Shown here: piece after piece, positions 45,394-61,921 of the stretch
Layout of the letters: every line of letters starts with the position of its first letter
Numbering within the stretch: the stretch's first letter is position 1
NCBI RefSeq assembly: GCF_001723605.1
Contig: NZ_CP017111.1
Coordinates: forward strand, 1,364,001 to 1,428,000
Source of the DNA: Sulfurospirillum halorespirans DSM 13726
GTDB lineage: Bacteria > Campylobacterota > Campylobacteria > Campylobacterales > Sulfurospirillaceae
Direction: 5' to 3'
DNA length: 64,000 nt
Made by a program: the position numbers and the translations under genes
The notes under the pieces: generated by a model
Seen by the model: the letters and a program-made list of their open reading frames with translations, nothing else
Told to the model about the DNA's origin: nothing
Database searches by the model: none

Positions 45394-45837
45394 TTAATCT
45401 GTCGTAAAAACCATCGCTTGTTCGTATAGCGCCGATCCCATTTTCCCCCACATTGAAAAAAGGTGCATCTCTCTTTCTGATAGATTAAAAATATGTGCAA
45501 TTTTATCCATCGTTTTGTGCTCATAAATGCCAAATTTATCATCAATATGGACCAAAACCATTAACGCGAGAATGGTGATTTTTCGGCTTTGTATCGATCT
45601 AAAGGTCTCCAATGTCTCTTCTAAATTAAAAGATTCTAAATTAATTTCCATATTTTCAATGCCCATCTCTGTGCAATATTCATCGACCAATTCGCGCTCT
45701 TTTAGCCCGTATTCCCCATCGAGTTTCGCAACATACTGTGCGAGTTGTAAAAAAGCAAATTTCTCTTCAGTTTTCAGTTTCATAAGTAACAATTCGTACT
45801 CCTTTGAGATTAAATCATAGAAATTATAGTCAAACAT
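45394..45837 (-). CDS. TerB-like protein
   Basis: A 147-residue all-helical cytosolic protein with a TerB-like pattern: AQYVAKLDGEYGLKERELVDEYC and VLVHIDDKFGIYEHKTMDKIAHIFNLSE, acidic helices with Asp/Glu that may bind metal in TerB. The name implies tellurite resistance, but most such proteins have other roles, so no function is assigned. It diverges from tetR. Confidence 0.75.
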   Translation of the reverse strand: MFDYNFYDLISKEYELLLMKLKTEEKFAFLQLAQYVAKLDGEYGLKERELVDEYCTEMGIENMEINLESFNLEETLETFRSIQSRKITILALMVLVHIDDKFGIYEHKTMDKIAHIFNLSEREMHLFSMWGKMGSALYEQAMVFTTD

Positions 45838-45900: not shown

Positions 45901-46485
45901 GTGGATAAAAAACTACGTAAAAGCGAAAAAATTTTAGATGCGGCGTTAATGCTCTTTTCAACACGAGGTTTTTATGCCACGACGATTCCTGACATCGCCA
46001 AAGCAATGGGGATGAGTGTGGGAAATATGTATAACTATTTTTCCTCCAAAGAGATGCTTGCCAAAGAGATTATCAAATACTCGTCCGATATTTTAGGCGC
46101 TGAGATCCGTCATGTGAACGAAGAAGAGGGAAATTCGAAAGAGAAGATTCGAAAGATTGTGGCGCTCTATTTTGAGATGGCTTCTTCAAAACCACAACAC
46201 ATCAACTACTTTTTACGTGTCTATCTCGCCAATAGGGAAGTCTTCAAAGAGGGATGCGAAGGGATGCTGTGTGTCTCATCGTTTGTCACCGAATTGATGA
46301 TCTTTTTTGAAGAGGGAGTGGCGTGCGGAGAACTTCGCAATCAAGACTTCTTCTCTGCATTTGGGCTGTTTATGGGCTATTTGGGTGGGTTTGTTTTTTT
46401 AAGTGGGGAAGGTGTTTTGGAAAAAGATCTTAACCATTATGTCGATGAGATTGCGCTCAATATCTACAACGCGCTCAAACACTAA
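45901..46485 (+). CDS. TetR-family regulator of the hydrogenase region
   Basis: A 194-residue repressor: the N-terminal helix-turn-helix (ILDAALMLFSTRGFYATTIPDIAKAMGMSVGNMYNYFSSKE, residues about 10-50) is followed by a ligand-binding domain. GTG start 45901 follows GGAAGGA. Its stop overlaps hupS by one base, so tetR, hupS and hupL form an operon. Candidate operators occur upstream of hydA. A link to hydrogen or redox sensing is inference. Confidence 0.9.
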   Translation: MDKKLRKSEKILDAALMLFSTRGFYATTIPDIAKAMGMSVGNMYNYFSSKEMLAKEIIKYSSDILGAEIRHVNEEEGNSKEKIRKIVALYFEMASSKPQHINYFLRVYLANREVFKEGCEGMLCVSSFVTELMIFFEEGVACGELRNQDFFSAFGLFMGYLGGFVFLSGEGVLEKDLNHYVDEIALNIYNALKH

Positions 46486-47375
46486 TGTCTCAAAAATCCA
46501 CCATCATCTGGCTTCAAGGTCTTACATGTAATGGCAACAGCCACTCCTTTTTTAACTACCCACAGATGCCAAGTTTTGCCGCTTCCTTTGAGATGCTGTA
46601 TCATCCACTTTTATGCGGCGCAGAGGATTTTCTAAGCTTTTTAAAGAGCGATACGAAGTTTGATTTTTTGATATTAGAGGGTGCTTTGAGCCATGATGAG
46701 AGGCTCATCGAGCGTTTTGGTCTTCCTTTTTATGAAATCCTTGATGTTCTCGCCACTCGTGCTAAGCATATCATCTGTGCAGGCAGTTGCGCTAGTTTTG
46801 GCGGTGTTTTTAGACTGCGTGATCCGCAAAAGATTACAGGCGCACTCTTTAGTGGTAAAGAAAAAGGCGGTTATTGGCTGGAGAAAAACAATGTCATAAA
46901 CATCTCAGGCTGTCCCGTGCATCCGCGCTGGCTGGTGGAAACACTTTTAGCGTTGCATGTGGGTGAAAAAGTACTTCTAGATGCCTTTTTGCGCCCCAAA
47001 GAGGTCTTCTCTTATCTTGCCCATCATGGGTGTTTGCGCAATGAATATTTTGAATGGAAGGTCGATAGCAAACAACTTGGCGAGAGAGAAGGGTGCTTGT
47101 TTTACGAACACGGCTGTTTAGGGCCTATGAGCCATGCCAATTGCAATAAGATTTTATGGAATGGAGTGAGCTCCAAAACAAGGGCAGGCTCGCCCTGCTT
47201 AGGATGTACAGAGTTTGACTTTCCAAGAATTGCGTTGTATGAAACCCAAAAAAATATGTCCTTGCCTCAAACGCCTTTTGGCATCTCAAAGCGTGCATAT
47301 TACAGCCTTGCAGGTGTGGCAAAAAGTTTTAAAATTGAGAGACTTGAAAAGAAGCTGATTGATGAAGATAACTAA
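46485..47375 (+). CDS. hupS: Cytoplasmic [NiFe] hydrogenase small subunit, atypical
   Basis: A 296-residue small subunit without a Tat signal, so it stays in the cytoplasm. SCASFGGVF, INISGCPVHPRW, HGCLRNEYF, EGCLFYEHGCLGP and AGSPCLGCTEFDFP supply Cys/His for the Fe-S clusters. In the proximal cluster motif (normally CxxC) it reads CNGN at residues 15-18, so the second cysteine is an asparagine. It starts on the tetR stop codon and overlaps hupL. An uptake enzyme or hydrogen sensor is possible. Confidence 0.88.
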   Translation: MSQKSTIIWLQGLTCNGNSHSFFNYPQMPSFAASFEMLYHPLLCGAEDFLSFLKSDTKFDFLILEGALSHDERLIERFGLPFYEILDVLATRAKHIICAGSCASFGGVFRLRDPQKITGALFSGKEKGGYWLEKNNVINISGCPVHPRWLVETLLALHVGEKVLLDAFLRPKEVFSYLAHHGCLRNEYFEWKVDSKQLGEREGCLFYEHGCLGPMSHANCNKILWNGVSSKTRAGSPCLGCTEFDFPRIALYETQKNMSLPQTPFGISKRAYYSLAGVAKSFKIERLEKKLIDEDN

Positions 47376-48705
47376 AGAGATTATACAGCGCATCGAAGGC
47401 GAAGCGACCTTGGAGCTGGAGTGGGAAGAGCAGAAGATAAGCTTTGCTCGCATTAAATTTTTTAATTACCGTGGCATTGAAGAGATTTTGCAAAAGCGTC
47501 CTATTTTAGACGCGCTGGCTTTAACGCCTAGGGTCTGTGGTATCTGCTCGCATTCGCATGCCATTGCCTCCGTACACGCCATCGAAGCGTGTTATAAAAA
47601 TGCAGGTGAGCTTTTACATGTAAGCCAAAAAGCCAAAGATATTCGTGAAATTGCTCTCAATGCTGAGAAGATTCATAATCACATTAAGTGGTATTTTTTC
47701 ACCATTTTGCCTGAACTGAGAAGAATCTCCGATCCAACCTATCATGGCAACGCTTTTAAAGAGAAGCAGTGGTTCCATGCACAAAATGCGATTATGGAGA
47801 CGCTTAAAATGAGCGCTCATTTTACAGGGCAATGGCCGCATGGCTCGTTTGTGATGGCAGGAGGTGTGACGTGTGATCCCCTTAAAAGCGATCTTCTCAG
47901 TGCACTTGGCTGTTTAGATGCTGTGATTGCTTTTTGTGAAGAGCATTTTTATGGCATGCGTTTAGAAGAGTTGTTGGGATTTGATTCTGCCTTGCAGGTG
48001 ATGTCGGCACCTTCAGCGCTCTCTCACGGTATTGATGAGATGCTCAAACATGGTTTTGATCGTTTGGGACGTAGTTTTGATCGCTTTTTAGCCTTGGGTG
48101 AGTCTTACATGTACGAAGGAAGTCTTAAAGCATCCAAAACAACCGTCCTCAGTGCGGATGTTAAATATGTGCATGAGAGTTTGGAACACACCTTTTTTGA
48201 AGACAAGCACAAAGGCTATACCTACTCGAAAAGTGCCATGTACAAAAAGAGTTATTGGGAAGTGGGTCCCATGGCACGTTTAATGGTCGCAAAAGAGCCG
48301 TTGATGCGTGATTTTCACCGCAGGTTTAAAGATGCAGCACTTACTCGTGTGGTGGCACGCGCCGTTGAATGTGCCCATTTGCTCTGGCGTACAAAAGATC
48401 TTTTAGAGCATTTAACCCTCAAAGAGCCCTCTTTTATTCCACCCAAAAAAGAGATTCACACTTTAAGTGGCGAGGGAATGGGCGTGGTTGAAGCGCCACG
48501 TGGATCACTCATCCATCATGTAAAAGTGCATCAAGGGATGATTCAATCGTATGATATTATCACGCCAACGGTTTGGAATTTAGGCAACGGTGACACAGAA
48601 AATCCATCCACGGCACAAAAAGCACTTATTGGTCTACATTCGTTTACCAAAGCCGACTTTATCCTCAAAAGTTTTGACGTTTGTTCGGTCTGTACCACCC
48701 AATAG
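47362..48705 (+). CDS. hupL: Cytoplasmic [NiFe] hydrogenase large subunit, atypical terminus
   Basis: A 447-residue large subunit. RVCGICSHSH (C59, C62) and the C-terminal DVCSVCTTQ give the four Ni-Fe cysteines. The normal DPCxxCxxH is altered: P is V, and H is Q, and the protein ends there. There is no C-terminal peptide to be cleaved by a maturation protease, as in regulatory (HoxC/HupV) hydrogenases. It overlaps hupS by 14 bases. Palindromes at 47613 and 48104 lie inside it. Confidence 0.88.
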   Translation: MKITKEIIQRIEGEATLELEWEEQKISFARIKFFNYRGIEEILQKRPILDALALTPRVCGICSHSHAIASVHAIEACYKNAGELLHVSQKAKDIREIALNAEKIHNHIKWYFFTILPELRRISDPTYHGNAFKEKQWFHAQNAIMETLKMSAHFTGQWPHGSFVMAGGVTCDPLKSDLLSALGCLDAVIAFCEEHFYGMRLEELLGFDSALQVMSAPSALSHGIDEMLKHGFDRLGRSFDRFLALGESYMYEGSLKASKTTVLSADVKYVHESLEHTFFEDKHKGYTYSKSAMYKKSYWEVGPMARLMVAKEPLMRDFHRRFKDAALTRVVARAVECAHLLWRTKDLLEHLTLKEPSFIPPKKEIHTLSGEGMGVVEAPRGSLIHHVKVHQGMIQSYDIITPTVWNLGNGDTENPSTAQKALIGLHSFTKADFILKSFDVCSVCTTQ

Positions 48706-48801: not shown

Positions 48802-48905
48802 TCCTGAATAATGTGCCTTCCTAGCATAATATGAAATATTTTTTGATTTAATACTAAATGAATACTCATTCAGGTAAACAAAATTTGTCTGTTTCCTGAA
48901 TAATG
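48802..48905 (+). promoter_or_regulatory. hydABC regulatory region with direct and inverted repeats
   Basis: The 242-base gap before hydA holds a 12-base direct repeat TCCTGAATAATG at 48802-48813 and 48894-48905, an inverted copy of its core (ATTCAGG, 48868-48874), and a TetR-like inverted repeat TGAAT-ACTC-ATTCA at 48859-48872. Such spaced repeats suggest cooperative binding or looping. The cotranscribed TetR at 45901 is the natural candidate, as inference. Confidence 0.5.
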
Positions 48906-50120: not shown

Positions 50121-51869
50121 ATGAGTAAAAGAATCGTAGTCGATCCAATAACCAGAATCGAAGGGCATTTAAGGGTTGAAGTTATCGTTGATGATAACAA
50201 TGTTGTAACAGAAGCGTACTCTTCTTCAACACTTTGGAGAGGTATTGAAACCATTTTAAAAGGTAGAGATCCAAGAGATGCTGGTTTTATGACCCAAAGA
50301 ATTTGTGGTGTTTGTACCTACTCACACTATAAAGCAGGCATTATGGCGGTTGAAGATGCTCTAGGTATCGAGCCTCCACTTAACGCAAAACTCACACGTA
50401 CCTTAATGAACAATGCACTTTTCTTACACGATCACGTGGTACACTTCTATCATCTTCATGGACTTGACTGGGTTGATGTGGTCTCAGCACTTAAAGCCGA
50501 TCCGCACAAAGCAGCTGCCGAGTCATTTAAGTACACCAATGCACCTATTGCCTGTGGTGCGGATGATCTTGTGGCAACGCAAACACGCGTGGCGGAATTT
50601 GTTAAAAAAGGTCACCTTGGACCGTTCGCAAATGCGTACTGGGGACATGCAACTTATAAATTAACACCTGAGCAAAACTTGATCGCGGTTTCTCACTACC
50701 TTAAAGCGCTAGAGCTTCAAAGAACCGTAGCCCAAATGATGGCGATTTTTGGTGCAAAACAACCTCACCCACAAAGCTTAACCGTTGGTGGTGTGACATG
50801 TATTATGGACCTTCAAACCCCTTCACGTTTAGGTGAGTACATGACAAAATTCAAAGAGATTGCTGATTTTGTGAATCGTGCGTATTATCCTGATCTTGTT
50901 ATGGCAGGCAAAGCGTATGCTAACGAGCCAAGTGTGACAGGCGGTCTTGGTGTTGCAAACCTTTGGACGCATCAAGAGTTCCAAATCAATGCGAAAGAGT
51001 TCTTGTTTGAGAGCGGTGTGATGATGGGCGAAGATGTGGTCAATTTAATCACAGGCAAACCTTTCAAAGTTCAAACACTCGATGAGAGCAAAATCACCGA
51101 AGAAGCAACACGTTCATGGTATAAAGACAATGCCGCTTACCATCCGTATGAGGGTCGTCAAGAGCCTAACTATACAGGCTTTAAAGATGCTCAAACGATT
51201 AATGATAAAGGTGTTTTGGCTCCGACTAAAGTTATCGATGAAAATGGTAAATACACATGGATTAAAGCACCTCGTTATGATGGTAAACCACTCCAAGTAG
51301 GACCATTGGCAAACATTGTTATCAACTATGCGCTTGGTAACAAACGTGTTAAAGTCGTTGTGGATAAATTCCTTGCCGATACAGGTCTTCCAATCACTGC
51401 CGTTGCATCAACCTTGGGTCGTACAGCATGTCGTATGCTTGAAGCCAAAGTGATTGCAGACAATGGTATGGAAGCGTTTACCTCATTGATTCAAAACCTT
51501 AAAGTTGATGATTCTACATGTACAAGTTACAAGATTGATAAAAACAAAGAGTACAAAGGTCGCTACATTGGTCATGTGCCTCGTGGTGTTCTGAGTCACT
51601 GGGTTAAAATCAAAAATGGTGTGATTGAAAACTACCAAGCCGTCGTCCCTAGTACGTGGAATGCAAGTCCAAAAGATGCTAAAGGTGTTAGAGGATCGTA
51701 TGAAGAGTGCCTTATTGGTCTTAAAATTACGGATCTTTCTCAACCACTTGAAATCGTAAGGATTATCCACTCTTATGATCCATGTCTTGCATGTGCAGTA
51801 CACGTCATGGATACCAAAGGGAATGAGATGAGCAGTTATAAGGTCAATGTTAACGGTGCGTCTTGCTAA
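50121..51869 (+). CDS. hydB: Membrane-bound [NiFe] hydrogenase large subunit
   Basis: A 582-residue catalytic subunit: RICGVCTYSH (C62, C65) and DPCLACAVH (C555, C558) bind Ni-Fe. After His561 come 21 residues, the peptide removed by HydD after nickel insertion. The N-terminus VVDPITRIEGHLRVEV is the standard family start. It is 15 bases from hydA, in the hydABC operon. A palindrome variant at 51513 is inside, in a variable part. Confidence 0.97.
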   Translation: MSKRIVVDPITRIEGHLRVEVIVDDNNVVTEAYSSSTLWRGIETILKGRDPRDAGFMTQRICGVCTYSHYKAGIMAVEDALGIEPPLNAKLTRTLMNNALFLHDHVVHFYHLHGLDWVDVVSALKADPHKAAAESFKYTNAPIACGADDLVATQTRVAEFVKKGHLGPFANAYWGHATYKLTPEQNLIAVSHYLKALELQRTVAQMMAIFGAKQPHPQSLTVGGVTCIMDLQTPSRLGEYMTKFKEIADFVNRAYYPDLVMAGKAYANEPSVTGGLGVANLWTHQEFQINAKEFLFESGVMMGEDVVNLITGKPFKVQTLDESKITEEATRSWYKDNAAYHPYEGRQEPNYTGFKDAQTINDKGVLAPTKVIDENGKYTWIKAPRYDGKPLQVGPLANIVINYALGNKRVKVVVDKFLADTGLPITAVASTLGRTACRMLEAKVIADNGMEAFTSLIQNLKVDDSTCTSYKIDKNKEYKGRYIGHVPRGVLSHWVKIKNGVIENYQAVVPSTWNASPKDAKGVRGSYEECLIGLKITDLSQPLEIVRIIHSYDPCLACAVHVMDTKGNEMSSYKVNVNGASC

Positions 51870-51887: not shown

Positions 51888-52565
51888 ATGAAAAGAGATA
51901 TAGAATTTGAGTTCTCAGCAGGGCTTCGTTGGACGCACTGGCTTAGAGCAATTGCTATTTTTGTATTAACGGTGACAGGGTTTTATTTAACCTATGTGTT
52001 CATTGCACCTGAAGCATCAGATGAGCCTATCCTCTTCTTAAATGCAAAATTCAGAATGTGGCATGAAATCGCAGGATTTTTACTCATCGCCATTACGCTA
52101 TTTAAAACATACCTCTTTTTTGCTGATCGTATCAGTTCAAAAGAGAGGGTATCGTTTTTAGATTTTGTCAGTCCAAAAGTGTGGTTTGGGCAGCTTAAAT
52201 ATTACCTTTTTATGGGGGAACATCCTCAGTTAAGAGGTGTGTATAATCCGTTGCAGTTTATTGCATACGTAGGTCTGTATACCATGATTTTTATCATTAG
52301 CATCACAGGTCTTATTTTGTATGTACATTCGTATCAAGCAGGCGGTATTGGGGGCTTTTTATATGACTATATGCGCCCCATTGAAGCAATGCTTGGCGGA
52401 CTTTCAATGGTTCGAGAGATTCACCATATCGTTATGTGGGGTATCTTGATCTTCTTACCAATTCACATCTATATGGCGATCTTTAACTCCATCATGGGAA
52501 AAGAAGGTTCCATGGATGCGATTATTAGTGGTTACAAATTTCATAAACAACACCCAAAACACTAA
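51888..52565 (+). CDS. hydC: Hydrogenase cytochrome b subunit
   Basis: A 225-residue membrane cytochrome b with four helices. FSAGLRWTHWLRAIAIFVLT holds the first heme-ligand histidine, with further histidines at MWHEIAGF and REIHHIVMW. It anchors HydAB and passes electrons to quinone. It belongs to the Ni/Fe-hydrogenase b-type family (HydC of Wolinella). Confidence 0.95.
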   Translation: MKRDIEFEFSAGLRWTHWLRAIAIFVLTVTGFYLTYVFIAPEASDEPILFLNAKFRMWHEIAGFLLIAITLFKTYLFFADRISSKERVSFLDFVSPKVWFGQLKYYLFMGEHPQLRGVYNPLQFIAYVGLYTMIFIISITGLILYVHSYQAGGIGGFLYDYMRPIEAMLGGLSMVREIHHIVMWGILIFLPIHIYMAIFNSIMGKEGSMDAIISGYKFHKQHPKH

Positions 52566-52577
52566 GCGAGTCTTGGC

Positions 52578-53117
52578 TTGAAAGTGTTGATTTTAGGCAT
52601 TGGCAATGTGATGTTCTCCGACGAAGGCGTCGGAGTTCATCTATGCCGCCTTGTTGAACAAAAGTATCAGTTTTCTTCGCCTGAGCACACAATCACATTT
52701 GTTGATGGTGGCACCCTCGCACAAAGATTAATCCCCGTTATTGCTGAATATGAATACCTTGTCGTTCTTGATTGTGTGGATGCACAAGATGGGAAGATCG
52801 GTGATGTCTACTTTTTCGATTTTGAAAATGTTCCCAACACGATCACATGGCAAGGAAGTGCACATGAAGTTGAGATGCTTCAAACGCTCACGATGATGGA
52901 TCTCGTTGGAGATCGCCCTACCACAAAAATCGTTGGTATTATCCCCGAAGTCGTGGATGATACAACACTGGAACTCACGCCTGCTGTTTTAAAAGGAAGT
53001 GTCGTGATGGAGAGTGTTTTACTGAAACATCTGGTAGAATTAGGCTTTACCTATGAGCAAATGAACAATATTGACATCCAAAGTGTAGCCAACCTGTCGT
53101 GTCTGGAGAATCGATGA
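52578..53117 (+). CDS. hydD: Hydrogenase maturation protease
   Basis: A 179-residue protease that removes the HydB C-terminal peptide. VLILGIGNVMFSDEGVGVHL (the Glu of DEG is the nickel ligand), VVLDCVDAQDGKIGDV and QGSAHEVEMLQTL (the His ligand) mark the HyaD/HupD family. TTG start at 52578. It overlaps the next gene by 19 bases. Confidence 0.94.
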   Translation: MKVLILGIGNVMFSDEGVGVHLCRLVEQKYQFSSPEHTITFVDGGTLAQRLIPVIAEYEYLVVLDCVDAQDGKIGDVYFFDFENVPNTITWQGSAHEVEMLQTLTMMDLVGDRPTTKIVGIIPEVVDDTTLELTPAVLKGSVVMESVLLKHLVELGFTYEQMNNIDIQSVANLSCLENR

Positions 53118-54769
53118 TCTTAGCCTTTGAATTTAACTATGTCTCGCATAATGGAATTTTAGAAAATTTACTGAAAGAGATCGCAAGTGATTGTGCAATT
53201 TTGCATAAAATTATTCGTAAAGAATCGATTGTAACGCTTTGTGTTGAAGCCGATGAGACAACGTTGGGCACGTTTGCCGACACGCTCTCCGCCTCACTAC
53301 CTCTGTCCATTTTCTTTAAATCTTCCAGTGTTGAAGTCGTGGATGCAATGCCAAATGAGGCAGAAGTTTTACCTTCTTTATCCTACAACGCTGAGTTTAC
53401 ACCTAAAAATTTAGCGTCAGTTGATTCACCAAGTTCGCCACACTATCTCTCACCGATTTTGGGTGAAAAAGAGTTACATGTAAGCCTTTTTCATGACGAG
53501 AAAGAGCTTTTACATGTAAACACATCGGCAGGCTATGAAACGCTTTATAGCAACGTTGCTGAACTGATTTCAAGCGGTGAAAATGTGTCGATTCAAACCA
53601 AAAATGGCTCGTTTGTCTTTGGTAAAATTGAAAACAGCACTGAGTGTAAAGCGTTTGAAGTGGTCGCGACTGATTTATCGGTTGTTGAGCGTATGGTTGT
53701 GTGCAGGGAAAATGAGATAAAAGCCTTGGCTTCATTAGAGCGCCCTGCTATTCGATTTAAAGTCAATGCCCTTTTTGCACAAAAAGGAATTATTACGCAA
53801 TCTCGCGTCACCTTACGCCTTGCCGATGATCTTTTTCTGTATCAGCTTTCTAAGCATCTGTTTGCAAAAGGCATTCAGTTCCTTTTCAAAGCATCATCGT
53901 GCAAAGCAACGTACCGTGTGAGCGTGAGTGTTACCCAAAATGCGCTAGAGCCACTTCTTATCAGCGTGCTTGAAAATGGTGCGATTCTTATTCTTAAGGG
54001 AAGTGACTATGCTTCCACGGCACTTAAAACGAGTTTGAAAAAATTTGAAGAACCTTCACATGCTGCGTTTGCATCTATTATGCAAGAGCATCAACTTTTC
54101 GATGCGACATCAAGCTGTTTTTACTTCAGCACTCTTCACAATGATCGCATGATGCACTACTCCAAAGAGCATGGTATGCTCAATCTTGTGGAGATTTTAC
54201 TGCCTATTTCTTTTACAGAACTCTTTGCTGAAGTCGAGCGAAGCAGCGAAAGTGCAGAGCGTTTGGTGGCACATTATAAAGAGCAATTTCCTGAAATTTA
54301 CGCCAAAGCGGTTGCAATTAAAATGCCCAGCGATACACCTAAAAGTGTCTATTCGCTGTGGAAAATGATGGCAATAGCCTTAGGTTTAAGCGATGATTTT
54401 GAGCGCGCAGGTGAGCAACTTTTGGAAAATGCAGAAGATTTTGGTGGACTTAAAGGGCCACGCATTGACTACTTTTTGCAAAAAGAGGACGCCCTTAGCT
54501 CCGATCTTGATTACGTCAGAATGCTTCGCAGCGGTATGAGCTTTAAACTTGCAGGAACCGATAATACGACGCTCAGTTTTGGGTATATGGAGAGTCTTTC
54601 GTATTTTATCTCTGATCTTGCCGATGCGCATAAGGAAAATTTGATGAGCACGAAGATAGCGTTGTGTGGTTCACTTTTTGGCTATAAACGTTTTTCTGAG
54701 ATGATCATTAAAAATCTCAAACCCAATCATACGATCTGCTTCAATAAAGAGTTGCCGATTGACCAGTAA
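53099..54769 (+). CDS. hydE: HydE-type hydrogenase accessory protein
   Basis: A 556-residue protein at the hydE place of the Wolinella operon hydABCDE, between the maturation protease and HypF. The N-terminus (ILAFEFNYVSHNGILENLL) is well structured, but I see no known catalytic motif. Two palindromes (53473, 53509) encode LHVS and LHVN. Late residues ISDLADAHKENLMSTKIALCGSLF resemble the end of HypF-like proteins. Role unknown, presumably maturation. Confidence 0.72.
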   Translation: MSGESMILAFEFNYVSHNGILENLLKEIASDCAILHKIIRKESIVTLCVEADETTLGTFADTLSASLPLSIFFKSSSVEVVDAMPNEAEVLPSLSYNAEFTPKNLASVDSPSSPHYLSPILGEKELHVSLFHDEKELLHVNTSAGYETLYSNVAELISSGENVSIQTKNGSFVFGKIENSTECKAFEVVATDLSVVERMVVCRENEIKALASLERPAIRFKVNALFAQKGIITQSRVTLRLADDLFLYQLSKHLFAKGIQFLFKASSCKATYRVSVSVTQNALEPLLISVLENGAILILKGSDYASTALKTSLKKFEEPSHAAFASIMQEHQLFDATSSCFYFSTLHNDRMMHYSKEHGMLNLVEILLPISFTELFAEVERSSESAERLVAHYKEQFPEIYAKAVAIKMPSDTPKSVYSLWKMMAIALGLSDDFERAGEQLLENAEDFGGLKGPRIDYFLQKEDALSSDLDYVRMLRSGMSFKLAGTDNTTLSFGYMESLSYFISDLADAHKENLMSTKIALCGSLFGYKRFSEMIIKNLKPNHTICFNKELPIDQ

Positions 54770-61181: not shown

Positions 61182-61862
61182 CTATTTTTCACGAATCATC
61201 TTTTCCAAAATCAGCCTCTGCTCTTCTTCGTTATAATTAAATTTAAACTCGGCTTCTTTGAGATAATAGATAAAATTCTCTTTTTTAATCCCTTTGAAAT
61301 GATCCATCCATCCTTCTAAAAAATACCAAAAATCGACTAAGGCGTTGTCAAAACTCTCGTAATGTGCCACTTTGTGCTGGTTGAGATAGCGTGCATAGGT
61401 CTCTTTTTCGATGGAATCTTCTTCTAAATTTTTAAGATGGGCGAATTGATCGGGGAGCAGAAGCGTGTGAATGCGTTTGTCGTATAACATGCCTAAAATG
61501 CCGATAGCATCGAAGAGATACGTTGGTTTCCCTCGTTTACATGTAGGCAGGAAATAGTACTCATCGTATTGGGAAAACGTATCTGTTTGCTCTGTGTAGA
61601 GGGCTTCGGAGTGTGATATGAGCAAAAGGCGCAATTTTTGGTAGGTTTTAGTGACGGTTAGATAATTGAGCCCTAAACGTTTGGCACATTCATGGGCACT
61701 GTGATTGGCGATAAAAGAGGCGATGATGTCTCTTTTTTTGTCCTGTTTTGCATGGCTAAAGGTGCGTTTACATGTAACGCAGCGATACTGTGTGGAAGAG
61801 GCTTTGTAGAGTTTAGTGTGTCCACAAAAAATGCACGATTTTTCTTCTGTTTTCATAGACAT
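61182..61862 (-). CDS. IS1595-type transposase-like zinc-ribbon protein
   Basis: A 226-residue protein with an N-terminal zinc ribbon (CIFCGHTKLYK...YRCVTCKRTFS), a HTH region (ANHSAHECAKRLGLNYLTVTKTYQKL), and a shortened region in place of the DDE domain of IS1595-type transposases. I see no terminal inverted repeats or target duplications, so it is probably a single, domesticated gene or a relic. ATG 61862 follows AGGAAAAAT. A TCK codon group in the second zinc pair comes from palindrome 61767. Confidence 0.72.
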   Translation of the reverse strand: MSMKTEEKSCIFCGHTKLYKASSTQYRCVTCKRTFSHAKQDKKRDIIASFIANHSAHECAKRLGLNYLTVTKTYQKLRLLLISHSEALYTEQTDTFSQYDEYYFLPTCKRGKPTYLFDAIGILGMLYDKRIHTLLLPDQFAHLKNLEEDSIEKETYARYLNQHKVAHYESFDNALVDFWYFLEGWMDHFKGIKKENFIYYLKEAEFKFNYNEEEQRLILEKMIREK

Positions 61863-61921
61863 ATTTTTCCTAAAAATAACTAAGAAACTTCTTTTTTTAG
61901 CTCCCATTTAAAGAGTTGCTC

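Follow-up and report, generated by a model that had tools for sequence, protein, structure and literature searches.

A TetR-family regulator as the constant partner of the group 2d [NiFe] hydrogenase HupSL in Campylobacterota, with a predicted operator at uptake hydrogenase promoters

The locus described here lies in a stretch of 64,000 nucleotides, referred to as the window, from a 3.03 Mb genome of the Campylobacterota. It harbors, in this order, tetR, hupS, hupL, hydABCD, a 556-aa ORF, and hypF. This order matches the description of Sulfurospirillum multivorans, where hupSL (SMUL_1421-1422) is located after a TetR gene and before hydB (SMUL_1424) (PMC5357620). The features are as follows:

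45901..46485, + strand: tetR, first gene of the module, FadR-like TetR-family regulator of 194 aa (Pfam TetR_N, 3.9e-17)
46255..46272, + strand: CX4C motif of TetR (Cys119 and Cys124), invariant, in a loop before helix 125-140 of the model
46485..47375, + strand: hupS, cytosolic [NiFe] small subunit of group 2d, 296 aa (Pfam NiFe_hyd_SSU_C, 2e-23)
46527..46538, + strand: CNGN proximal-cluster motif within hupS (Cys15 and Asn18)
47362..48705, + strand: hupL, [NiFe] large subunit of group 2d, 447 aa from ATG (Pfam NiFeSe_Hases)
48673..48705, + strand: C-terminal end of HupL, FDVCSVCTTQ plus stop, with no tail for cleavage by a maturation protease
48859..48872, strand given as ".": predicted TetR operator TGAATACTCATTCA, 75 bp before the hydA start codon
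48948..50105, + strand: hydA, Tat-exported small subunit of the membrane-bound uptake hydrogenase (TIGR00391 hydA, 1e-160), predicted TetR target
50121..51869, + strand: hydB, large subunit of the membrane-bound hydrogenase (Pfam NiFeSe_Hases, 3.4e-206)
51888..52565, + strand: hydC, cytochrome b subunit (TIGR02125)
52578..53117, + strand: hydD, maturation protease in the same gene run as hydABC (TIGR00140 hupD, barely above cut-off)

Both HupS and HupL were confirmed as [NiFe] hydrogenase subunits by Pfam and NCBIfam; an alternative TTG start of hupL at 47359 would give 448 aa. Since the tetR stop and hupS start codons overlap (TAATG) and the first 14 nt of hupL lie within hupS, the single operon of tetR, hupS, and hupL suggested in the first-pass annotation is plausible. 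This operon encodes no ferredoxin, electron-transfer subunit, or other electron partner, and no membrane gene lies between hupL and hydA in the window. As the first-pass annotation also stated, HupS lacks a Tat signal: it gave no TAT_signal match, while the neighboring HydA has one.

The surroundings of the module deserve brief mention. A gene for a TerB-like protein (45394-45837, - strand, weak Pfam match) adjoins tetR. The 556-aa ORF between hydD and hypF (53099-54769, + strand) has no Pfam or NCBIfam match and is conserved at 46% in locus L163 and at 27% in L177. A zinc-ribbon, IS1595-transposase-like gene (61182-61907, - strand) adjoins hypB, and similar genes lie by hypB, the protease gene, or hupL in four other genomes (G386, G317, G109, and G058; loci L319, L328, L326, and L124), as if a domesticated transposase accompanied the hydrogenase genes. 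On a 50-kb plasmid of Sulfurimonas paralvinellae (L276, 3384-10873), tetR-hupSL-hydABC directly follows an integrase gene; the module can therefore be mobile.

The residues that first drew attention to this hydrogenase proved to be ordinary for its family. In HupS (WLQGLTCNGNSHSF), Asn18 takes the place of the second Cys of the CxxC motif, and HupL ends in DVCSVCTTQ at the stop codon, with Val for Pro, Gln for His, and no tail. These letters had been read correctly, yet both features had been regarded as unusual, which the comparison with relatives does not bear out. Of 101 Campylobacterota relatives with sequence in this region, 90 have Asn at the proximal position, 9 have Cys, and 2 have Asp, the nine with Cys forming a Nautiliaceae-like set. 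CxGN (CSGN or CNGN) is present in all six Huc-type group 2a references (plasmid-borne, from Thermus, Mycobacterium, Sphingopyxis, Mesorhizobium, Runella, and Sulfobacillus) and is thus standard in groups 2a and 2d. CNGD, with Asp, is found in L074 and L075, from a sister genus within the family. In all 102 large subunits, two residues follow the last Cys, then His (72), Gln (25), or Lys (5), and the protein ends; a C-terminal tail occurs in none of the 102, nor does a Pro before the third Ni-Fe Cys. The four Ni-Fe cysteines (RVCGIC...DVCSVC), noted earlier as retained, are invariant in these 102 relatives. Two candidate markers were consequently discarded: Asn18 is no unique ligand, as Huc and other 2a enzymes have Asn there, and the terminal Gln is no functional mark, as His, Gln, and Lys alternate among relatives.

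In a maximum-likelihood tree of large subunits from Campylobacterota and groups 2a and 2b, 26 Campylobacterota proteins lie on one side of a branch with 100/100 support, and groups 2a (n=6) and 2b (n=3) are each separate. Both CNGN and the lack of a tail are normal for this single well-supported clade, the outcome that the first-pass annotation had named as refuting its view of these residues. The Campylobacterota family is labelled group 2d (PMC12286921, PMC5401914). The HupSL of the window is an ordinary member of group 2d, a family already known but functionally unexplained. A profile search of genome contigs, aimed at Aquificota with a Nautiliaceae-first alignment, returned matches from Campylobacterota only.

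Aligned with the 2a and 2b references, HupS appears as a mosaic of ligands. The proximal site (three Cys and Asn) and the medial site, where Lys replaces the fourth Cys of group 2b and leaves three, are like those of Huc; the distal site has His in 102 of 102 relatives, a residue shared with group 2b, whereas Huc-type enzymes have Gln. By this alignment, the proximal cluster would be held by three Cys with Asn nearby and is probably a [3Fe-4S] cluster as in Huc, followed by a probable [3Fe-4S] cluster at the three-Cys medial site and a probable [4Fe-4S] cluster (His/Cys3) at the distal site. The AlphaFold model of HupS was poor (pLDDT 70, and <50 over residues 177-241, the medial/distal cluster region) and was left unused.

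Two readings of HupSL can be judged at this point. A degenerate or inactive enzyme, to which the Asn for Cys and the Gln end might point, is very improbable, given that every other ligand is invariant phylum-wide and that the active Huc has this Asn as well. Slightly less remote, though still improbable, is a role as a Huc-like H2:menaquinone oxidoreductase for trace H2. HupS is closest to Huc by sequence (best PDB match, the Huc small subunit of Mycobacterium smegmatis, 3e-51, which reads CSGN), has the same CxGN and medial ligands, and its Tyr207 and Lys192 match Tyr229 and Lys212 of Huc. However, the menaquinone-contacting Tyr301 of Huc is replaced by Leu in 85 of 102 relatives (though not in the window, which has Tyr), no gene for a stalk subunit follows hupL, and the C-terminal tail of all six 2a references is absent.

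The tie between HupSL and the regulator is nearly absolute, and the two are inherited as a pair. In whole genomes, tetR lies directly upstream of hupS on the same strand at 100 of 100 loci. A set of 80 named loci, overlapping the former in species, has tetR at 77; one further locus lies at the edge of its contig, whereas two (L201 and L218) truly lack tetR there, which leaves 77 of 79 testable loci. Among 397 genomes across the phylum, TetR was found in 115, HupL in 113, and both in 112, the lone HupL lying on a contig that ends within hupS. TetR without HupSL is found in G033, G186, and G242 (broken gene). TetR can thus persist without HupSL, as in G033 and G186, which have retained the regulator together with its Cys pair and the operator. 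Outside the family, TetR (about 57-68% identity) is better conserved than HupSL (32-55%).

TetR shows the traits of its family, a TetR_N DNA-binding domain (Pfam) and an all-helical effector domain (model and PDB matches). Its AlphaFold model (pLDDT 91) has the CX4C pair in the loop before helix 125-140, and both Cys119 and Cys124 are present in 104 of 104 orthologs with sequence in this region. The closest solved folds include Bacillus FadR, with a TM of about 0.8 and about 20% identity. Four paralogous TetRs (L179, L180, L181, and L182; 40-44% identical) carry a CX4C-like motif and neighbor molybdate-transport, SelD-like, HypA/ferredoxin, or group 4-like hydrogenase genes, possibly as members of a wider redox TetR family. 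The idea that CX4C is specific to partners of HupSL is weakened by such paralogs and by the HupSL-less orthologs that keep the motif.

These observations bear on the view that TetR responds to a different signal (acyl-CoA as in FadR, oxygen, or the thiol redox state) and governs the H2 regulon, with HupSL an autonomous enzyme or a minor redox modifier. The closeness of the fold to FadR and the retention of CX4C where HupSL was lost, as well as in some paralogs, are in its favor. It is nonetheless unlikely, as HupL without TetR is seen only at a contig edge among the 397 genomes and the pair stays intact where hydA has moved away.

The target of TetR is suggested by a palindrome, TGAATACTCATTCA, which was spotted in the window by visual inspection and then tested in other genomes. 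A strict form, TGAATNNNNATTCA, was defined, and a score matrix was built from the strict sites, with a cut-off of at least 10. The strict form occurs at two places in the 3.03 Mb genome, namely the hydA promoter and a distant position inside or beside unrelated genes; in a matrix scan of the window, the hydA site scores 21.4 vs 5.7 for the next independent one. Among the hydA promoters of TetR-bearing genomes (n=93), 54 contain the strict form and 87 score at least 10, 86 of them above all 40 shuffles; including the promoter of L172, whose tetR is on another contig, gives 88 of 94. As the matrix was trained on strict sites, only the 39 promoters without one form an independent test, in which about 33 reach the cut-off. 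In TetR-less genomes, a site was found at one of 21 hydA promoters (G027, whose congener G033 has TetR). Fisher p values overstate the independence of such counts, since the genomes are related. Two Sulfurospirillum loci without tetR and hupSL (L167 and L169) show an operator with one intact and one decayed half, TGAATAATCATGTA, about 80 bp upstream of hydA; no site was found at the remaining TetR-less promoters. Hydrogenase promoters thus bear the palindrome almost exclusively in genomes that have TetR.

At loci with hydA displaced from hupL, the site accompanies hydA. In 11 genomes, hydA lies elsewhere than downstream of the module. Nine of these (G371, G174, G260, G382, G358, G062, G386, G230, and G317) have a strict site within 300 bp upstream of a hydA, and the remaining two (G109 and G058) have a one-mismatch site upstream of hydA. 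These genomes contain 1 to 10 strict sites each, and their second hydA-type genes lack the site, except for one in G260. In six genomes, additional sites stand before a NicO-like nickel-transporter gene with hypB behind it (G062, G174, and G358) or lie in the gap between hypB and a divergent gene (G386, G317, and G109), where a maturation protease gene follows in two of the three cases. Genes for HydA, nickel transport, and maturation are the regulon expected of a hydrogenase regulator. In G260, a hydrogenase-type palindrome (L107, about 7880 in hupL orientation) also fronts a polysulfide-reductase-like molybdoenzyme cluster, which suggests a wider regulon in that genome.

Upstream of tetR itself, 14 of 105 loci have a site that reaches the cut-off of 10, some Arcobacter-like and some Nautiliaceae-like, and none of them in Sulfurospirillum; autoregulation of tetR-hupSL through the same palindrome was rejected for this genus. 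The general lack of a site at this position argues against the published suggestion that TetR mainly represses hupSL. As a prediction, TetR control of hydA is well supported computationally: a role as repressor at TGAATNNNNATTCA is indicated by the conservation of the site, its absence without TetR, and its recurrence in trans. A description of this operator or regulon was not found in the literature searched, a search that left out most subscription papers.

Taken together, TetR is proposed to repress the hydrogenase genes, with HupSL as its H2-sensing partner that switches on H2 metabolism; a probability of about 0.6 is assigned to this reading. TetR and HupSL would constitute one signaling unit, in which TetR would act as a repressor at the predicted operator before hydA, and HupSL, a cytosolic group 2d [NiFe] hydrogenase, would oxidize H2 and signal to TetR. 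In the presence of H2, the membrane-bound hydrogenase would be made and, in other genera, the products of nickel uptake and maturation genes as well. The likeliest route from HupSL to TetR would be a redox change at the invariant CX4C or a direct H2-dependent binding. That HupSL reports H2 to TetR is suggested by the near-absolute pairing, the cytosolic location, and the lack of both a tail and electron-carrying partners. It is further suggested by very low or undetected hupL transcripts in S. multivorans (PMC5357620), by group 1b genes that are up 2.3-6.2-fold with H2 in Arcobacter butzleri (PMC12286921), and by a published remark on group 2d, which "could have a regulatory function" (PMC10052474). 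The more detailed version, in which HupSL is a kinase-free H2 sensor that passes electrons, directly or via a small carrier, to the CX4C of TetR and so frees the hydABC, nickel-transport, and hyp promoters, this being the function of Campylobacterota group 2d, is put forward only tentatively. The hydrogen or redox sensor envisaged in the first-pass annotation hence gains from the link to TetR and from the operator at uptake hydrogenase promoters in cis and in trans, but the Asn and Gln residues provide no evidence for sensing.

Several observations count against the sensor model: TetR is kept without HupSL in two genomes, hydB is nearly constitutive in S. multivorans (PMC5357620), and hynAB is unchanged between H2 and formate in Sulfurospirillum hDNRA2, albeit with H2 produced in the formate cultures (PMC12286921). 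The hallmarks of group 2b (L1 Gln, CGGC, and a histidine kinase) are missing, and the drop of huaSL with H2 in A. butzleri is left unexplained.

The main competing view takes HupSL as a metabolic enzyme that supplies low-potential electrons (ferredoxin, reductive TCA cycle), with TetR regulating H2 metabolism and merely sharing its operon. Such a role in reductant supply has been suggested for Aquifex hydrogenase III, for group 2d in general (PMC5401914), and for S. multivorans (PMC5357620), and every catalytic ligand of HupSL is intact. Yet transcripts are barely detectable in S. multivorans (PMC5357620), the Aquifex homolog is hard to detect in extracts (PMC10052474), and the operon lacks a ferredoxin or electron-transfer subunit. 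HupSL is also tied more tightly to TetR than to hydA, the pair staying together where hydA has moved away. This view is rather unlikely, if somewhat less so than a TetR that responds to another signal.

Roles of group 2d in reductant supply, H2 recycling, and sensing have each been put forward with no mechanism given; where earlier papers described the enzyme as H2-sensing, they did so from similarity alone (PMC2628731). New here are the phylum-wide obligate TetR partner and the predicted regulon of group 2d HupSL. The sensing model becomes testable through its fixed partner, its conserved regulon, and an operator defined to 14 bp, and the TetR-operator evidence turns an old guess into a specific variant of H2 sensing without a kinase. 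If true, H2 would be sensed via a one-component repressor rather than the kinase relay of HoxBC/HupUV, and this in major H2 oxidizers at hydrothermal vents.

Among known systems, the closest relatives are those of group 2d, i.e. HupSL of S. multivorans, huaSL of Campylobacterota, and hydrogenase III of Aquifex; like the window enzyme they are cytosolic, and the upstream TetR was noted in S. multivorans (PMC5357620). The regulator resembles the FadR-type TetR of Bacillus in fold, but differs from it in the invariant CX4C and in its predicted targets, the hydrogenase genes. A palindromic operator is a further likeness, that of the FadR-type regulators being of the TGAATG...CATTCA type. A TetR beside the group 2a hydrogenase of Runella shares only local similarity in the DNA-binding domain and has no CX4C. 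Huc (group 2a, PDB 7UTD and relatives), the closest solved structure, has three [3Fe-4S] clusters (PMC10017518) and shares the CxGN proximal motif and the three-Cys medial site. Its clade is separate from group 2d, and Huc-type large subunits have a cleavable tail (13-20 residues in six of six references) with a protease gene nearby.

The group 2b sensors (HoxBC/HupUV with HoxJ/HupT kinase and HoxA/HupR) are likewise two-subunit cytosolic hydrogenases without a C-terminal tail, the large subunits ending in CTVH in HoxC and HupV and in CTTQ in the window. The distal H..GC.RNEY region is alike, and both are tied to the control of energy-converting hydrogenases, in the window by the operator evidence. 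In contrast, the proximal motif is CGGC in all three group 2b references, a fourth Cys occupies the medial site, and the L1 motif is RVCGICSVSQ in HoxC, whereas HupL keeps His (RVCGICSHSH); Gln in this motif is a mark of group 2b sensors (PMC5665086). The absent L1 Gln, the proximal motif, and the absent kinase rule out HupSL as a group 2b sensor. The group 2b references are flanked by a gene annotated as ATP-binding protein (the kinase, by position), and their systems work with a kinase and a response regulator, whereas HupSL of the window has a one-component TetR, with tetR and hydABC as neighbors.
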